From Cryomorphaceae bacterium 1068 (GTDB lineage: Bacteria; Bacteroidota; Bacteroidia; Flavobacteriales_D; Cryomorphaceae): 64,000 bases of DNA. The notes beneath the pieces were generated by a model. It saw nothing but the letters and a program-made list of their open reading frames with translations. It ran no database searches and was not told where the DNA came from. The position numbers and the translations under genes are program-made. The stretch spans positions 124,001 to 188,000 of the forward strand of contig JAPVXR010000007.1 of assembly GCA_027214385.1 (NCBI GenBank), read 5' to 3'. Below are positions 36,771 through 42,541 of this stretch, piece after piece. Numbering within the stretch: the stretch's first letter is position 1; each line of letters begins with the position of its first letter.

Positions 36771-37971
36771 TGAGTTCGCTTTTTAACAAATCCGTTAGAT
36801 CTGCGGTGATTTTAGAAAGGGAATGGCTATTGACCCAATCTTGATTTGGCTCAATTTCTTTTGACTGATCAATGGCTTTCATCAATTCCTTTGTCAATCG
36901 ATCTTCGTGAATAAATTGTCCGAGTGATTTATTCTCAATCAATTCGCTCAAGTTACTTGGCTTACCGATTGCCAAAATAGGCTTTTGACAGGCAGCCAAC
37001 TCATAGAGCTTGGTCAATCCATATCGTTTGCCTTCCGGCAAAAAAAGCAGTGAATACTTGGAAGCTTTCACTCGAGTAAAAAACTCTTTACTCGAAAGAG
37101 GAGGCAGGGCCTTGAAGAACTCGTTTTGAATCGAAGAGTCAACGAGACTTCCCGTGCGAATTTCGATTTTCAGTTCCTTGGCCTTAGCAAAAGCACTCAA
37201 CTCAGCCAAGGCAGGTTCCAAGCCTTCGTAGATGGCGCCGCCATAAATCAGGTCGGGTGGATTCTCCACTTCGCCTTTGCTCTTCAAGTCATCATCATCG
37301 AAGAAATGCGGCAAAACCGAGAGCTTCTTCGCTTGATCGGGATGCCTTTGCTGCAGCTCCTCGATATTTTGAGGCCATGGCATGGTCACCAAATCGAAGG
37401 TATCGACCACTTTGGCTTCTTTCTCTTTTTCGATCTCCAACCTTTCGTTTGAAAGTGCGGAATAGCCAAAGGCCGAACCGTTGACCCAAGGGTCGCGCAA
37501 ATCGGCCAATGAAAGTACATCGGGATGATTCTCCATTTCAATCGCAGCGAAATACAACAGATCAAACGGGGCACCCGTGGCAATGATTACATCGGGATTG
37601 AACTTCTCCATTCGTTGACTGAACAGAGATCGAAAAGCGAGTTGGTCCAATGCGGCCCGATCGTAAGGCGTACCTTTTGTCTTCAAGACCATTTTTCGCA
37701 AAGCCATGCGGTACCTCACTTTGTCGATCAAGCGAGCGGGTTGCATTTTCAGCGAAGCGGGAAATGAAGTTTTGAATCGAAATACGGGAATCCCGTCCAC
37801 ATCGGCAGTCCAAGAACTATCGGTCTCGGCGGGCATATCGGCAGAAATGACTTCCACCTCGATGCCAGAGCGCCTGAATTGTTTGGCAAATTTTGCCCAG
37901 CGCCTCCCGCCTATTCCGCCTTGTGGAGGAAAAGAATAAGCCACAATCAGGATGCGCTTGATTTCGGTCAT
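36760..37971 (-). CDS. Glycosyltransferase family 4-like protein
   Basis: A 403-residue GT-B protein. It begins KRILIVAYSFPPQGGIGGRR, a common opening of Bacteroidota GT4-like enzymes. The donor domain is divergent: LIYGGAIYEGLEPALAEL near residue 245 and SLLFLPEGKRYGLTKLYELAACQKPIL stand where other GT4 enzymes have the EX7E motif. Family membership is clear, activity less so. It overlaps the nucleotidyltransferase by 4 bases and wecB by 11. Confidence 0.82.
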   Translation of the reverse strand: MTEIKRILIVAYSFPPQGGIGGRRWAKFAKQFRRSGIEVEVISADMPAETDSSWTADVDGIPVFRFKTSFPASLKMQPARLIDKVRYRMALRKMVLKTKGTPYDRAALDQLAFRSLFSQRMEKFNPDVIIATGAPFDLLYFAAIEMENHPDVLSLADLRDPWVNGSAFGYSALSNERLEIEKEKEAKVVDTFDLVTMPWPQNIEELQQRHPDQAKKLSVLPHFFDDDDLKSKGEVENPPDLIYGGAIYEGLEPALAELSAFAKAKELKIEIRTGSLVDSSIQNEFFKALPPLSSKEFFTRVKASKYSLLFLPEGKRYGLTKLYELAACQKPILAIGKPSNLSELIENKSLGQFIHEDRLTKELMKAIDQSKEIEPNQDWVNSHSLSKITADLTDLLKSELNAK

Positions 37972-38369
37972 TTTCTGATCTGCTCTACCAGTTTTGAGGT
38001 GCTATAGCCGTGGCTACGGTCGATGTAGACGATTCGCTTGATGGCATCGCCGGCCGTAATCGGCTTGCCCTCGTAATCGTCGCCGAGAAAACGCACGTGG
38101 TAATTTCCCGTCGACATAATCTCGGTCAACTCCTCCTCGGTTTGGTAATCAATAATTTCATCGACGTACTTGATCGATTCGAGCACCATGCGGCGCTCTT
38201 CCAAAGTGAAAAATGGCTTGCGCTTACCAGGGTTGATGGCCTCGTCAAAATTTTCGGAGCGATTGAGGGCCACGGTCAGGTGATCGCAGTGTGCCTTGCA
38301 GTCGTGCAGCATCAGCACGTGACCGGGATGGTACAAATCGAAAACTCCGCACGCAAAACCTCGAATCAT
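37968..38369 (-). CDS. TagD/HldE-C-like sugar- or polyol-phosphate nucleotidyltransferase
   Basis: A 133-residue single-domain nucleotidyltransferase with the HxGH motif HPGH at residues 14-17 (CGVFDLYHPGHVLML) and the C-terminal nucleotide-binding segment HGYSTSKLVEQI, equivalent to ISTTK of TagD. EERRMVLESIKYVD and FLGDDYEG resemble glycerol-3-phosphate cytidylyltransferase more than the HldE C-domain, but context favours a heptose-like substrate. The kinase, isomerase and epimerase genes directly upstream would feed it a sugar 1-phosphate. It overlaps the epimerase and GT4 genes by 4 bases each. CTP versus ATP use is undecided. Confidence 0.88.
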   Translation of the reverse strand: MIRGFACGVFDLYHPGHVLMLHDCKAHCDHLTVALNRSENFDEAINPGKRKPFFTLEERRMVLESIKYVDEIIDYQTEEELTEIMSTGNYHVRFLGDDYEGKPITAGDAIKRIVYIDRSHGYSTSKLVEQIRK

Positions 38370-39277
38370 CCCAAGACAGATTTGATGTAAGATTCCAAAT
38401 CGTACTCCGGCTCCCAGCCCATTACGGCTTTGGCCTTGCTCACGTCAGAGTATGTTATTTCAGCTTCGCCCTCGCGTAGCGGAATGAATTCATATTCGTC
38501 CGAAATCATTTTTGCTAAATCGAGCACTGAGACAGTCCCCGAGGCGCCGATATTGAAAGCGGTGTTGAGTTTTTCGGGATGTACCGCCGCCATGTAGTTG
38601 GCTTTCGCCAAATCGTACACGTGAATGAAGTCGCGCTTCTGCGATCCATCACCCGTAATCAAGAGTGGTTGGTTCTGCTCCTTTCGGTAAAGAAAGATTC
38701 CCACCACCGAACTATAAGCATTGAACTTATTTTCGGGATTGAAACTGCGCGGCCCGAAAGGGTTGAAATACCTCAAATGGACAAAATCCAGAGGGTATCG
38801 CGTCGCCAGCATTTGAAAGTATTTTTCTCCTTCGTATTTCTGAAAAGCATAGGGACTCAAGCAATCCACTTTCTCCGTTTCGGGAGTCGGTATCAAATCG
38901 GGAGTACCGTAGATGGCGCTGGAAGAGCTATTGACGAATCGCGGAAAGTGATTATCGGCGATCATGAGCTCCACCAAGTGAATGGAAGCCAAAAGATTTT
39001 CTTTGATGTGTTCCGTCACCAACTCAAAGCTCGGCTGGATTCTGGGCAAAGCCGCCAAATGAAAAATCGTATCGTAAGGCTTTAATGAGTTAAGCAAAAA
39101 GAGCGAATCTTCGATCAGATTGAATCGTGGATTGTCCAAGTTCTCGGCCACATTCGACCGTCGGCCCGTGCTAAAGTTGTCTATTCCGTCGATCTCCCAA
39201 TCTGTCTTTTCCAAAAGATAATCGAGCAAATTGGAACCGATAAATCCGGCTACACCTGTTATGAGAACTTTCTTCAT
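38366..39277 (-). CDS. NAD-dependent nucleotide-sugar epimerase
   Basis: A 303-residue extended SDR with the complete Rossmann motif TGVAGFIGSNLLDYLL, the substrate serine region NSSSSAIYGTP near 116 and the catalytic YAFQK near 144. HLRYFNPFGPR and GDGSQKRDFIHVYD are typical of UDP-glucose 4-epimerase-like enzymes. Within the kinase/isomerase/nucleotidyltransferase cassette it may act on the NDP-sugar product, as HldD does in ADP-heptose synthesis, although its motifs look more like 4-epimerases. It overlaps its neighbours by 4 bases on both sides. Confidence 0.85.
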   Translation of the reverse strand: MKKVLITGVAGFIGSNLLDYLLEKTDWEIDGIDNFSTGRRSNVAENLDNPRFNLIEDSLFLLNSLKPYDTIFHLAALPRIQPSFELVTEHIKENLLASIHLVELMIADNHFPRFVNSSSSAIYGTPDLIPTPETEKVDCLSPYAFQKYEGEKYFQMLATRYPLDFVHLRYFNPFGPRSFNPENKFNAYSSVVGIFLYRKEQNQPLLITGDGSQKRDFIHVYDLAKANYMAAVHPEKLNTAFNIGASGTVSVLDLAKMISDEYEFIPLREGEAEITYSDVSKAKAVMGWEPEYDLESYIKSVLG

Positions 39278-39792
39278 TGGGCGATTTCATCTAGGATGAC
39301 GTGGAGAATGACTTGGTGGTAGCACTCTACGATTCCGTAATTTTCGACGGTGGTTTGAAAGTTGACATCGCCCATTTGAGAGAGCTTATTGTCTTTCTTG
39401 AATCCCGAAAGCGTCATCACTTTTCCGCCTTTTGCTCGGTGCACATTTACCGCGTTCAAGATGTTGGCAGATTCGCCCGAAGAGCTAATGGCTACCAAGA
39501 GATCACCTTCCTGAAACGAAAAGTTGATCCATTCTTTCATGGCATTCTCGTAGCCGTAGTCGTTGGCAAAACAAGTAATCAAAGCTGCGTCGGTAAAACT
39601 CATCGTTGGCTTTCCGGCAATCTTCATGTAGTCTTCCATCATGTGGCTGCAGATGGCATTGCTGCCTCCGTTGCCGATGAAGATAACCCGCTTCGCTTGG
39701 CGAACCAAGTCCACGGATTGCTCCACACCTTTGGTGATTTCGGGATCGGCAAAGAATTCATCGAATGCCGTTTTATATGAACTGAGCTGCAT
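39274..39792 (-). CDS. GmhA-like SIS-domain sugar-phosphate isomerase
   Basis: A 172-residue SIS protein close to sedoheptulose-7-phosphate isomerase GmhA. Visible landmarks are FIGNGGSNAICSHMMEDYM near residue 36, with the expected catalytic glutamate, FANDYGYEN near 73, AISSSGESANIL near 100, and the C-terminal CYHQVILHVILDEIA with the catalytic histidine. The substrate is inferred as sedoheptulose 7-phosphate or a similar ketose phosphate. It overlaps the PfkB kinase gene by 20 bases, consistent with consecutive pathway steps. Confidence 0.9.
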   Translation of the reverse strand: MQLSSYKTAFDEFFADPEITKGVEQSVDLVRQAKRVIFIGNGGSNAICSHMMEDYMKIAGKPTMSFTDAALITCFANDYGYENAMKEWINFSFQEGDLLVAISSSGESANILNAVNVHRAKGGKVMTLSGFKKDNKLSQMGDVNFQTTVENYGIVECYHQVILHVILDEIAQ

Positions 39793-40663
39793 GTTTTTTC
39801 AATTTTTCGAGGGTGACTTCTTCTTCATTGCACAGCCAGGTACACGAAAGGCTGGCGGCCAATGAAGGAACGGTCATCACGTCATTAACGTCTTCAAATT
39901 TTAATTCGGCGGCCAGGCAGGCAAAGGCGTAGAAGGTATCTCCCGCTCCGATGGTGTCGACGATTTGCCCTTTGAAGACATCTTGGTGAACATAGCTGGA
40001 TCCATCGTAATAAACGGATCCGCGCTTGCCAAGAGTGAGAAATAATTTGTCGGCTCCGATCTCGTAGTTGTAGAGTTCCCTGATGGCATCTCTAGAGCTG
40101 AAATCAGTTTTTCGATTGACCTGAAGGCTGGCTTCACGCAAATCCATACACGCACTTTTCTTCGGAAAAGACTTCCACTTACTCATGCGGTTGTAGCCGT
40201 AATTATTGCTATTAGTTTGGGTCATGTAGTGGTACCGACCATTGACTTTGAGCTCATTGCAGAACCCGTGACCGAAATCGGCTACGATAACCACATCGTA
40301 ATCATGGGTATTGACCTCAAGCGGCCCGAAATTCCCTTGATCAAATTTATTGATCTCTACATGCTTCTTGGCGTCGTCGGCATCGATGAGTCGTGTTTTT
40401 ACGATTTCGTTTCCTGTATTCGTAAACACATCCACCTGCTTCACGAAATCGCGGAGGTGATTGGCTATAGCCGATGCACCACCCTGCTGCTCACGGCTGC
40501 GCCCGTCTTGATGGGCATACCGAAATACGGGACAGAAAGACTTCATGCTCTGGCCCTCGTACTTTACTTCGATGAACTTATCGACGATGGTCTCGCCTAT
40601 TACACAGACTTTAAAGTCTTTCACCGCCTCTGAAAAGGAATTGATTTTATCTTCTAAACTCAT
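39773..40663 (-). CDS. PfkB/HldE-N-like carbohydrate kinase
   Basis: A 296-residue ribokinase-fold sugar kinase resembling the N-terminal domain of HldE (heptose-7-phosphate kinase). The opening KVCVIGETIVDKFIEVK and the GGASAIANHLRDF motif near residue 62 bind substrate. The C-terminal VDTIGAGDTFYAFACL near 240 carries the catalytic aspartate and anion hole. HldE is normally a fusion of kinase and adenylyltransferase; here the two parts are separate genes three positions apart. It overlaps the upstream glycosyltransferase by 4 bases and gmhA-like by 20. Confidence 0.87.
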   Translation of the reverse strand: MSLEDKINSFSEAVKDFKVCVIGETIVDKFIEVKYEGQSMKSFCPVFRYAHQDGRSREQQGGASAIANHLRDFVKQVDVFTNTGNEIVKTRLIDADDAKKHVEINKFDQGNFGPLEVNTHDYDVVIVADFGHGFCNELKVNGRYHYMTQTNSNNYGYNRMSKWKSFPKKSACMDLREASLQVNRKTDFSSRDAIRELYNYEIGADKLFLTLGKRGSVYYDGSSYVHQDVFKGQIVDTIGAGDTFYAFACLAAELKFEDVNDVMTVPSLAASLSCTWLCNEEEVTLEKLKKHAAQFI

Positions 40664-41457
40664 TTCAATCTGCTAAAGAGTCCTCTTTTCGGTTTAAAAT
40701 TAAGTGGATCTCCGAAGTGCTTTTGCCTGATTTTCATCAGATCGGTTTTCACCGGAAGGAGCGCTTCAGGCAGTGCAGCCCTCCATGCTCCAAACCCTTG
40801 CAAGTAGCGAAAGTAGTTGTTTTCAGAAAACTTGCCGCTAGCGGTAGCTGTAATGCTTTCGGGATTCAGGATTCGAACGTAAACCGACTCCTTGGGGTGA
40901 ACGATATTTCGACCGCTGAAAAATATACGCCACGCTCTTGAATGATCGCAAGCGAAGAGATAATTCTCGACACTTCGGCTCCGCTCAGTGTCCGCACTCA
41001 GTGGTCGTGGATCATCTACTTTGGTCATGGCCTTTTCAAAATTCATAATGGCTGTATTCGGAATCCAGTCCCTTTTTTGACGAGAGGCGAGATCGGTAGC
41101 CAAATCGTAGAAGAAGTGCTTTCGGTCGTAGGCAATGTCGAAGTCGCGGTTGGCCAATTCATCAAAGACCATGGGGTTAATCAAATCATCGTCGTCGAGG
41201 CGCACGAGGTACTTGGCAAGTTGTGGCAACTTAGCCAACTGATCTCCTGCTTCTTTCAATTTCTCTTCTTTGGTGGTGCCTTCGCAAACGATCGTTTTAA
41301 AATGGGGATGAGTGATCTCTGCATCACCGAGGAGCCATACCACAAAACTCGATTCGAGCTGGGCCACTTGCTGAAAACAAAGCTTCTGCAAGTCCTTTCG
41401 AAGTGAAGCTTCTGCGAGATCGGGGCTGGTTGGAATGAGAAAAAGGTAGTCGAGCAT
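40660..41457 (-). CDS. Putative glycosyltransferase (rhamnosyltransferase-like, GT-A)
   Basis: A 265-residue soluble protein. The aspartate cluster YLVRLDDDDLINP near residue 85 looks like the DxD metal site of GT-A glycosyltransferases, and the fold resembles the putative rhamnosyltransferase family (Glyco_tranf_2_4 type). The opening MLDYLFLIPTSPDL and conserved tryptophans late in the protein (SRAWRIFFSG, YLQGFGAWRAAL) support this weakly. It starts after the operon's largest internal gap (55 bases following the GT9 gene). The donor and exact family are uncertain. Confidence 0.65.
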   Translation of the reverse strand: MLDYLFLIPTSPDLAEASLRKDLQKLCFQQVAQLESSFVVWLLGDAEITHPHFKTIVCEGTTKEEKLKEAGDQLAKLPQLAKYLVRLDDDDLINPMVFDELANRDFDIAYDRKHFFYDLATDLASRQKRDWIPNTAIMNFEKAMTKVDDPRPLSADTERSRSVENYLFACDHSRAWRIFFSGRNIVHPKESVYVRILNPESITATASGKFSENNYFRYLQGFGAWRAALPEALLPVKTDLMKIRQKHFGDPLNFKPKRGLFSRLK

Positions 41458-41512: not shown

Positions 41513-42541
41513 TTAAGCGTTCTCCTTCTCCACCGAAAATTTCTTCGCTTCCTTTTCTATCTCATCGAGGTTGAAAGCGTACTTCAGTGGTTTTCGGGTA
41601 AGGTTTTTTCGAAAGCGGAGGGTGTCGAATAATCCTTTGATGGGTGGCTCGCCGTTGAAGATGAGCAGCACGGGAGTGTTTACGTAGGCACCCATATGCA
41701 CGGCACCTGAGTGTTGGGTGACGATGAGCTTGGCCTCGGCGCAAAACTTGAGGGTATCCGCATTATCGGCCGAGACTTTTACCTCGATGTTTCCATCGCC
41801 TTCTACCTGAGCACTGAGGGACGGATGACCGACCAAATAGACTTTTTCGAAATAGGGGCTCAAGCGGCGGGCGATTTCCAAATAATCCCAAGGGCCGCCA
41901 TTGTTGGGTGTTACCTCTCCGCCTTTTTTGCGAGGAAAGATTACCACCGAATCGGTGGGGTTTTCGCCGTAGGCTTTCGCCAAGTTGTACTTGTGCTGAC
42001 GGCCTTCGAGCTGCCAATTCCGCAAGCCGTGCCAGTAAAAGTCAGATCGGTCAATGTCCAAAAGCGGCATTCCGCTCGACTTGGCCTTTTTTCTCCAAGC
42101 GTCGATCACGGAGGCGACATCTTTAGGGACTTCATTCTGATTGGCGCTGGGCTTTATCTCACCAAAGAAATCGCGAAGCTCGGTGAAAGTCTCTACGATC
42201 GATTCTCCTTTTTCGTCTACCATGAAGGGCTTGTGCAGGCTCATACCGCAGTAGTGAATCTTCACCCCTTTCTTGTGGAGGTGCATGAGGAAAGGCAGAT
42301 TGTGCAAAAGGAAATGTCCGAATTCCCCTTTGAAAGGGCCGTAAAAGCAGGCCTTTTCTTTGAGGGCTTTCTTGTAAAATCGATCCAGCGCCAGAGCGTA
42401 CTTCTTGTACTCCATGCCAAAACCGACCTTTCCCTTCCAGTTCATCCTGTCTTGGATAAGTTCAATGGCAGTGGCATCAGTGCGGCTGATGTACTTCAAC
42501 TCGGATCTACGGATGCCATATTTTTCCAGTACGGGAATCAT
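41513..42541 (-). CDS. Glycosyltransferase family 9-like protein
   Basis: A 342-residue GT-B protein whose C-terminal half matches heptosyltransferase (GT9) enzymes: VVIFPRKKGGEV..NGGPWDYLEIARRL near residue 200, and VTQHSGAVHMGAYVNTPVLL, the ADP-heptose-site signature with H-G-A-x-H-like spacing. The N-terminal half (KYALALDRFYKKAL, GPFKGEFGHFLLHN) is less usual. A GT9 enzyme in the same operon as a heptose-type cassette suggests it may be the transferase that uses the cassette's product. It overlaps the upstream GT4 by 4 bases. Confidence 0.75.
   Translation of the reverse strand: MIPVLEKYGIRRSELKYISRTDATAIELIQDRMNWKGKVGFGMEYKKYALALDRFYKKALKEKACFYGPFKGEFGHFLLHNLPFLMHLHKKGVKIHYCGMSLHKPFMVDEKGESIVETFTELRDFFGEIKPSANQNEVPKDVASVIDAWRKKAKSSGMPLLDIDRSDFYWHGLRNWQLEGRQHKYNLAKAYGENPTDSVVIFPRKKGGEVTPNNGGPWDYLEIARRLSPYFEKVYLVGHPSLSAQVEGDGNIEVKVSADNADTLKFCAEAKLIVTQHSGAVHMGAYVNTPVLLIFNGEPPIKGLFDTLRFRKNLTRKPLKYAFNLDEIEKEAKKFSVEKENA

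Follow-up and report, generated by a model that had tools for sequence, protein, structure and literature searches.

A second, divergent heptose-type gene cassette in a Bacteroidota polysaccharide operon and its predicted CDP-linked sugar

Why would a bacterium that already encodes an ADP-heptose pathway carry a second, heptose-like set of sugar-activation genes inside a polysaccharide operon, and which activated sugar would that set make? A four-gene cassette at 37968-40663 of a 64,000-nucleotide stretch of DNA from Cryomorphaceae bacterium 1068 raises this question. The whole stretch, here called the window, covers positions 124001-188000 of contig C7 in this 4.3 Mb Bacteroidota genome (G000). 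The cassette encodes a PfkB-family kinase, an SIS-domain isomerase, a short-chain dehydrogenase/reductase (SDR) and a nucleotidyltransferase. Our leading explanation, held at about even odds, is that the four enzymes produce an activated heptose-like sugar, CDP- rather than ADP-linked, for the polysaccharide of the operon and in parallel to the ADP-heptose pathway. We observed which genes are present, how far they are conserved and how they co-occur, and we assigned motifs and folds; from this we infer all reactions, the preference for CTP, and the carbon number and stereochemistry of the sugar. The genes of the cassette and its putative transferase are as follows.

39773-40663, minus strand: PfkB-family kinase, HldA/HldE-N-like, 296 aa (PF00294), predicted 1-kinase of an aldose 7-phosphate
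39274-39792, minus strand: SIS-domain ketose/aldose phosphate isomerase, 172 aa (Pfam SIS/SIS_2), with an H50-D54-E156-H164 metal-site signature
38366-39277, minus strand: extended SDR, GalE-like epimerase, 303 aa (Pfam Epimerase), with a YAFQK catalytic pair
37968-38369, minus strand: nucleotidyltransferase, predicted cytidylyltransferase, 133 aa (PF01467, CTP_transf_like), with HxGH and RSHGYSTS
41513-42541, minus strand: GT9-like GT-B glycosyltransferase, assigned by a fold search on a predicted model, predicted user of the activated sugar

A second heptose-like gene set and its recurrence

All four open reading frames of the overlapping cassette described in the original prediction are present, and Pfam assigned them to PfkB, SIS/SIS_2, Epimerase and CTP_transf_like. 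Successive genes overlap by 20, 4 and 4 bases. Because the run also overlaps its neighbours on both sides, the four genes are part of one long polysaccharide operon, which further encodes glycosyltransferases, a WecB-like epimerase, a Wzy-like membrane protein and a Wzc-like protein. In the profile search, none of the four proteins scored above an NCBIfam equivalog cut-off.

The same genome encodes the housekeeping pathway elsewhere. GmhA (248.7 bits, above the TIGR00441 cut-off) and HldD (370.7 bits, above the TIGR02197 cut-off) are located on C15, and a GmhB-like phosphatase unlinked to the cassette is located on C3 at 181512-181937 (TIGR00213, 126 bits; NF006506, 152 bits; both below cut-off). 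An HldE2-like protein of 172 aa on C2 scored 169.7 bits, slightly below the TIGR02199 cut-off of 181.5, and an HldE1-like kinase of 333 aa on C1 clustered with E. coli HldE at 100/98 in the tree. Since these five genes lie elsewhere in the genome, the cassette constitutes a divergent second set next to the housekeeping pathway. The splitting of the classic HldE fusion had been taken as a special trait. It proved ordinary and was ruled out as a point of novelty, as the housekeeping pathway here likewise encodes HldE1 and HldE2 by two genes and split hldA/hldC is already known in Burkholderia and Neisseria (PMC7993394).

The kinase was found at 5 loci of the genome contigs. At the level of the order it occurred in 12 of 399 genomes, and at the level of the class, with matches counted from 419 bits upward, in 15 of 395. 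Cassettes of the same kind as that at 37968-40663, which we call window-type, occurred in 25 genomes including the window's own after removal of duplicates. Because this kinase and isomerase recur together at all 24 other loci, in almost every case with the rest of the set, the cassette is not a chance assembly. Identity ranged from 50 to 82%. The isomerase adjoins the kinase in 25/25 loci, and the nucleotidyltransferase is present in 24/25, being cut by a contig end at L015. The SDR and a nearby GT9-like gene were each found in 22 of the 25; they occur together in 21 loci, and two loci (L188 and L189) have neither. The cassette at L078 is cut by a contig end, and L179 has the GT9-like gene and lacks both the SDR and the nucleotidyltransferase at the locus. 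Among the loci found, the nearest relatives are L011 (Flavobacteriales MAG, i.e., metagenome-assembled genome, ALOHA_ZT_11, same genus) and L014 (Cryomorpha ignava QSSC 1-22, same family). Between the window and L011, the nonsynonymous divergence (dN) was 0.13-0.18 and the synonymous divergence (dS) was saturated, so no dN/dS ratio is given.

Enzymes of the cassette

The nucleotidyltransferase carries HxGH (H14, H17) and RSHGYSTS, which begins with R118. It scored 67.8 bits against TIGR01518 (TagD, cut-off 165.4) and 66.6 bits against TIGR02199 (HldE2, cut-off 181.5), and its best PDB sequence match was TagD 1coz. The earlier placement of this enzyme nearer to TagD than to HldE is therefore a tie by profile score, and the motif residues alone side with the TagD type. 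Heptose nucleotidyltransferases (HldE2/HldC and HENases) carry (F/L)xxGxSTT (PMC11461863). The cytidylyltransferases CCT, ECT and GCT carry RTEG(I/V)ST(S/T), with the arginine in cation-pi contact with cytosine (PMC6060094). All 22 intact window-type enzymes have RxHGxS(T/S)(S/T), with arginine at the first position, where canonical HldE2 has L or F in 9/9; the (F/L)xxGxSTT pattern is thus lacking. The T and E of RTEG are replaced by S/D and H, the invariant N, K and F/L motif residues of HldE2 are replaced by C, L and R, and the arginine that the promiscuous STTR5 heptose enzymes have at the fifth motif position is absent. The intact set leaves out L012, whose frame is broken at the motif. 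At L012 (4829-5269, on a short MAG contig) the frame is lost after approximately residue 106, likely through a sequence or assembly error. In the tree, which has an arbitrary root, the window-type clade (99/99) lay outside a clade of canonical HldE2 and fusion-type enzymes (97/96), with TagD basal. Because the cytosine-stacking arginine occupies, in 22/22, the position of F/L in HldE2, CTP is the predicted donor, which would be bound by the cytidylyltransferase solution.

The kinase scored 44 bits against PF00294 and 38 bits against TIGR02198, below the cut-off of 345. In its predicted structure (predicted local distance difference test, pLDDT, 74.7), HldA structures occupied the first seven Foldseek places. 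The best match was HldA 4e84 of Burkholderia cenocepacia (Z 22.3, root-mean-square deviation 3.2 over 268 residues) and the best ribokinase reached 20.5, a small lead, all of these being PfkB folds. The predicted fold is of the HldA-type PfkB kind, and the predicted role is that of a 1-kinase acting on an aldose 7-phosphate. Window-type kinases formed one clade (100/99), joined to reversed nucleotidyltransferase-kinase fusions (99/99). Together with these fusions, canonical HldE and the cyanophage kinases, they separated from generic PfkB proteins at 92/88, slightly under the usual threshold.

The isomerase scored 76.9 bits against TIGR00441, below the cut-off of 209. A GmhA-type SIS active site is retained, with S44, S103, S105, S108, N77 and D78 (the last two in ND(F/Y)G) invariant in 25/25. 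In GmhA, the zinc ligands H64, E68, Q175 and H183 are fully conserved among orthologues, and mutating any metal ligand of the Burkholderia pseudomallei enzyme lowers activity (PMC5705639). The corresponding residues are H50, D54, E156 and H164 in 25/25 window-type isomerases, as against H-E-Q-H in the 8/8 canonical GmhA proteins compared; H-D-E-H also occurs in 8/8 isomerases of the reversed-fusion cassettes. Because of this shifted metal site, the cassette isomerase is, judged by its residues, not a GmhA orthologue. It is likely a functional metal isomerase with a shifted site, and its substrate may differ from that of GmhA.

The SDR scored 135 bits against TIGR01179 (GalE, cut-off 262) and 89.4 bits against TIGR02197 (HldD, cut-off 274.6). 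SSSSAIYG and YAFQK are conserved across 22 SDR sequences. The TDE triad, the mark of 4,6-dehydratases, is lacking, and for that reason our best guess is a redox-neutral epimerase. By score the SDR is GalE-like rather than HldD-like.

The GT9-like protein gave no Pfam match at 0.01 and no PDB sequence match with an 11-row profile. Its model (pLDDT 75.5) was nearest to WaaC, a Veillonella GT9 protein (3tov) and WaaF (Z 13.7-14.2), followed by the TibC heptosyltransferase (11.7) and by UDP-GlcNAc 2-epimerases (11.6 and below); plant NDH-complex chains matched it as well as WaaC did. Candidate catalytic residues are provided by a GEFG that is invariant and lies early in the first domain. The heptosyltransferase-like gene claimed for the operon is supported by its predicted fold, though without a sequence-family match.

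No GmhB-like gene was found in the window operon, as had been noted originally. The missing GmhB was ruled out as a pathway difference by the unlinked GmhB-like gene in this genome and by a gene in sister cassettes. In family f53 (L075, L076 and L077), a fifth cassette gene directly after the nucleotidyltransferase encodes a GmhB-like HAD phosphatase (NF006506, 97-115 bits, below the cut-off of 178; domain TIGR01656, above cut-off). The f53 genomes have no canonical GmhA, no canonical HldE2 and no other GmhB save a HisB-sized protein in one. Among their relatives, the f1/f2 genomes, 8/8 encode GmhA above cut-off, HldE2 and a GmhB-like gene, all unlinked, and their cassettes have no HAD gene. 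The comparison covers f53 and f1/f2, families f65, f85, f93 and f96 being left out. Because the cassette HAD occurs in genomes without a separate GmhB and is absent where an unlinked one exists, the simplest interpretation is a cassette dependent on a bisphosphate phosphatase, for which the housekeeping enzyme serves wherever there is one.

Candidate pathway and competing explanations

A heptose-type route is proposed because the kinase fold is nearest to HldA, f53 cassettes contain a GmhB-like gene and the transferase fold resembles WaaC/WaaF. Fold and motif evidence thus agree with the original idea of a gene set that activates a heptose-type sugar, has a GT9-like partner and includes a nucleotidyltransferase of the CTP type. 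The SIS isomerase would turn a ketose phosphate, for which sedoheptulose 7-phosphate is the simplest candidate, into an aldose 7-phosphate, which the HldA-like kinase would phosphorylate at C1 to the 1,7-bisphosphate. A GmhB-like phosphatase, acting in trans here and encoded by the cassette HAD gene in f53, would take off the distal phosphate to give the 1-phosphate. The nucleotidyltransferase would then combine this sugar 1-phosphate with CTP to form CDP-heptose, not ADP-heptose. Finally, the GalE-like SDR would epimerize the CDP-sugar, and the GT9-like enzyme would transfer the epimerized sugar. We infer that the sugar has seven carbons and is new. The wider proposal, that Bacteroidota evolved, alongside the ADP-heptose pathway, a separate route to CDP-heptose that has an isomerase, kinase, cytidylyltransferase, epimerase and transferase of its own and puts an undescribed epimerized CDP-heptose into exopolysaccharide, is tentative, and we rate it somewhat short of an even chance.

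Several results weigh against a CDP-heptose route. With no cassette member at an equivalog cut-off, the substrates may have changed, and the metal ligands of the isomerase differ from those of GmhA. The profile scores of the nucleotidyltransferase do not separate TagD from HldE2, and base choice is not fixed by any single residue (PMC11461863). Both fold models, of the kinase and of the GT9-like protein, are of middling confidence, and a common fold proves no function. Phosphatase complementarity rests on one family, f53, and is confounded by shared ancestry.

Two other explanations were weighed, each of which we regard as unlikely. The cassette could be a second ADP-heptose set for exopolysaccharide, keeping the housekeeping logic and donor and using the SDR as a variant epimerase. 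The HldA-like kinase fold, the sister-cassette phosphatase, the WaaC-like transferase fold and the near-equal TIGR02199 and TIGR01518 scores fit this account. It is opposed by the position of the nucleotidyltransferase clade outside the HldE2 and fusion clade together with the change of N, K and F/L to C, L and R, by an SDR that scores GalE above HldD, and by redundancy, a complete ADP-heptose set being already encoded.

It is comparably improbable, in our estimate, that the same logic of isomerization, phosphorylation, dephosphorylation and activation serves to make a CDP-linked sugar other than a heptose, from a pentose, hexose, octose or keto-sugar phosphate. All the enzymes are divergent and below every equivalog cut-off, the isomerase metal site is altered, and, as CDP-6-D-fructose and CDP-6-D-glucitol illustrate, other sugar phosphates can be accepted by cytidylyltransferases from capsule loci (PMC10918830). 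However, the kinase, the sister-cassette phosphatase and the transferase each point to the heptose branch of their superfamily, and known CDP-fructose routes use neither a kinase nor an SIS isomerase. A teichoic-acid-like CDP-polyol, with a TagD-type glycerol- or ribitol-phosphate enzyme among unrelated neighbors, would explain the 1coz match and the TIGR01518 score, but is very improbable, as that score is below half of the TagD cut-off, kinase, isomerase and nucleotidyltransferase occur together in 24/25 loci, and we know of no step in glycerol- or ribitol-phosphate activation that requires an SIS isomerase and a PfkB kinase.

Relation to known systems and significance

The proposed CDP-heptose route shares with the ADP-heptose pathway (GmhA, HldE1/HldA, GmhB, HldE2/HldC and HldD) its four-step logic and its SIS, PfkB, HAD and HxGH folds, followed by an SDR epimerase and a GT9-fold transferase, with the HAD enzyme in trans or in sister cassettes. 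It differs in enzymes below the family cut-offs, the H-D-E-H isomerase, the cytidylyltransferase-type arginine, the GalE-like SDR and its coexistence with a separate canonical pathway in one genome. The STTR5 HENases of Tang et al., as described in PMC11573728 and PMC11461863, form CDP-/UDP-heptose and likewise have a base-stacking arginine near the STT loop; CDP-heptose is the product predicted for the cassette too. In those accounts the arginine is at position 5, (F/L)xxGRSTT, whereas that of the cassette is at position 1, RxxGxST[ST], and the cassette has a dedicated transferase and an operon attached. TagD/GCT, the best PDB sequence match, shares HxGH, the segment GDD(W/Y)EGK and the RTEGIST arginine; in contrast, the cassette enzyme reaches less than half the curated score and sits with a kinase and isomerase, not with teichoic-acid genes. 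The CDP-6-D-glucitol and CDP-mannitol pairs (HS5.18/HS5.17 and Mnp1/Mnp2) also combine a cytidylyltransferase with an SDR-fold enzyme to give a CDP-linked capsule unit, but they use two enzymes from fructose 6-phosphate, without kinase, isomerase or phosphatase (PMC10918830).

Related cassettes contain a reversed fusion, with the nucleotidyltransferase first, opposite to HldE. Its companions are SDRs and an isomerase with H-D-E-H, and in many cases also a DegT aminotransferase. They were found in approximately 23 of 395 genomes of the class, and the loci are listed below.

L079, 8377-11476: reversed fusion cassette
L192-L197: reversed fusion cassettes
L051, 8434-11515: reversed fusion cassette on a plasmid
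L052, 6395-15925: reversed fusion cassette on a plasmid

Their kinases join the window type in the tree and their isomerases share its metal site. Unlike the window type, they are fused, their nucleotidyltransferase clusters with HldE2 and lacks the arginine, and their neighbors are an aminotransferase and other SDRs, plus split transketolase genes on the plasmids. The split transketolase genes near the two plasmid cassettes suggest that these act on a non-standard ketose phosphate.

Further genes accompany some window-type cassettes. A gene resembling S-adenosylmethionine (SAM) methyltransferases (KRLEIDxxL...DYGCGSGYG) lies between the GT9-like gene and the kinase at L179 (7264-7833), L187 (8877-9446) and L191 (9056-9625). 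This position suggests that certain strains may methylate the sugar. The gene next to the window cassette also accompanies it in several families.

40660-41457, minus strand: conserved protein outside any Pfam family, bearing a DxD-like RLDDDD motif and often adjoining the cassette, probably an undescribed glycosyltransferase

Among viral contigs, the kinase search gave no match and the profile search gave one distant contig, L062. The cyanophage loci of P-SSM2 and S-CAM1, which have a kinase and a nucleotidyltransferase, were rejected as the same cassette, their kinase clustering with canonical HldE in the tree. Genes of approximately 110 aa in these phages (L050 7719-8063, P-SSM2; L053 7719-8042, S-CAM1) are annotated as phosphoheptose isomerase; the P-SSM2 protein looks HAD-like (DIDGTI), unlike an SIS isomerase, and the annotation seems wrong.

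In the open-access literature, we found no description of PfkB/SIS/cytidyltransferase cassettes or of heptose genes of flavobacterial exopolysaccharide. Promiscuous enzymes were recently found to yield CDP- and UDP-heptoses, whose role in the producing organisms was called elusive (PMC11573728). Two sequence fingerprints, the H-D-E-H isomerase and the RxHGxST[ST] nucleotidyltransferase, tell pathways of the proposed kind from ordinary lipopolysaccharide heptose genes. With a cytidylyltransferase arginine and a dedicated transferase combined in roughly two dozen genomes, a role for CDP-heptose would become directly testable. If the proposal is true, it would provide the first physiological role, and the first clear job, for CDP-heptose.

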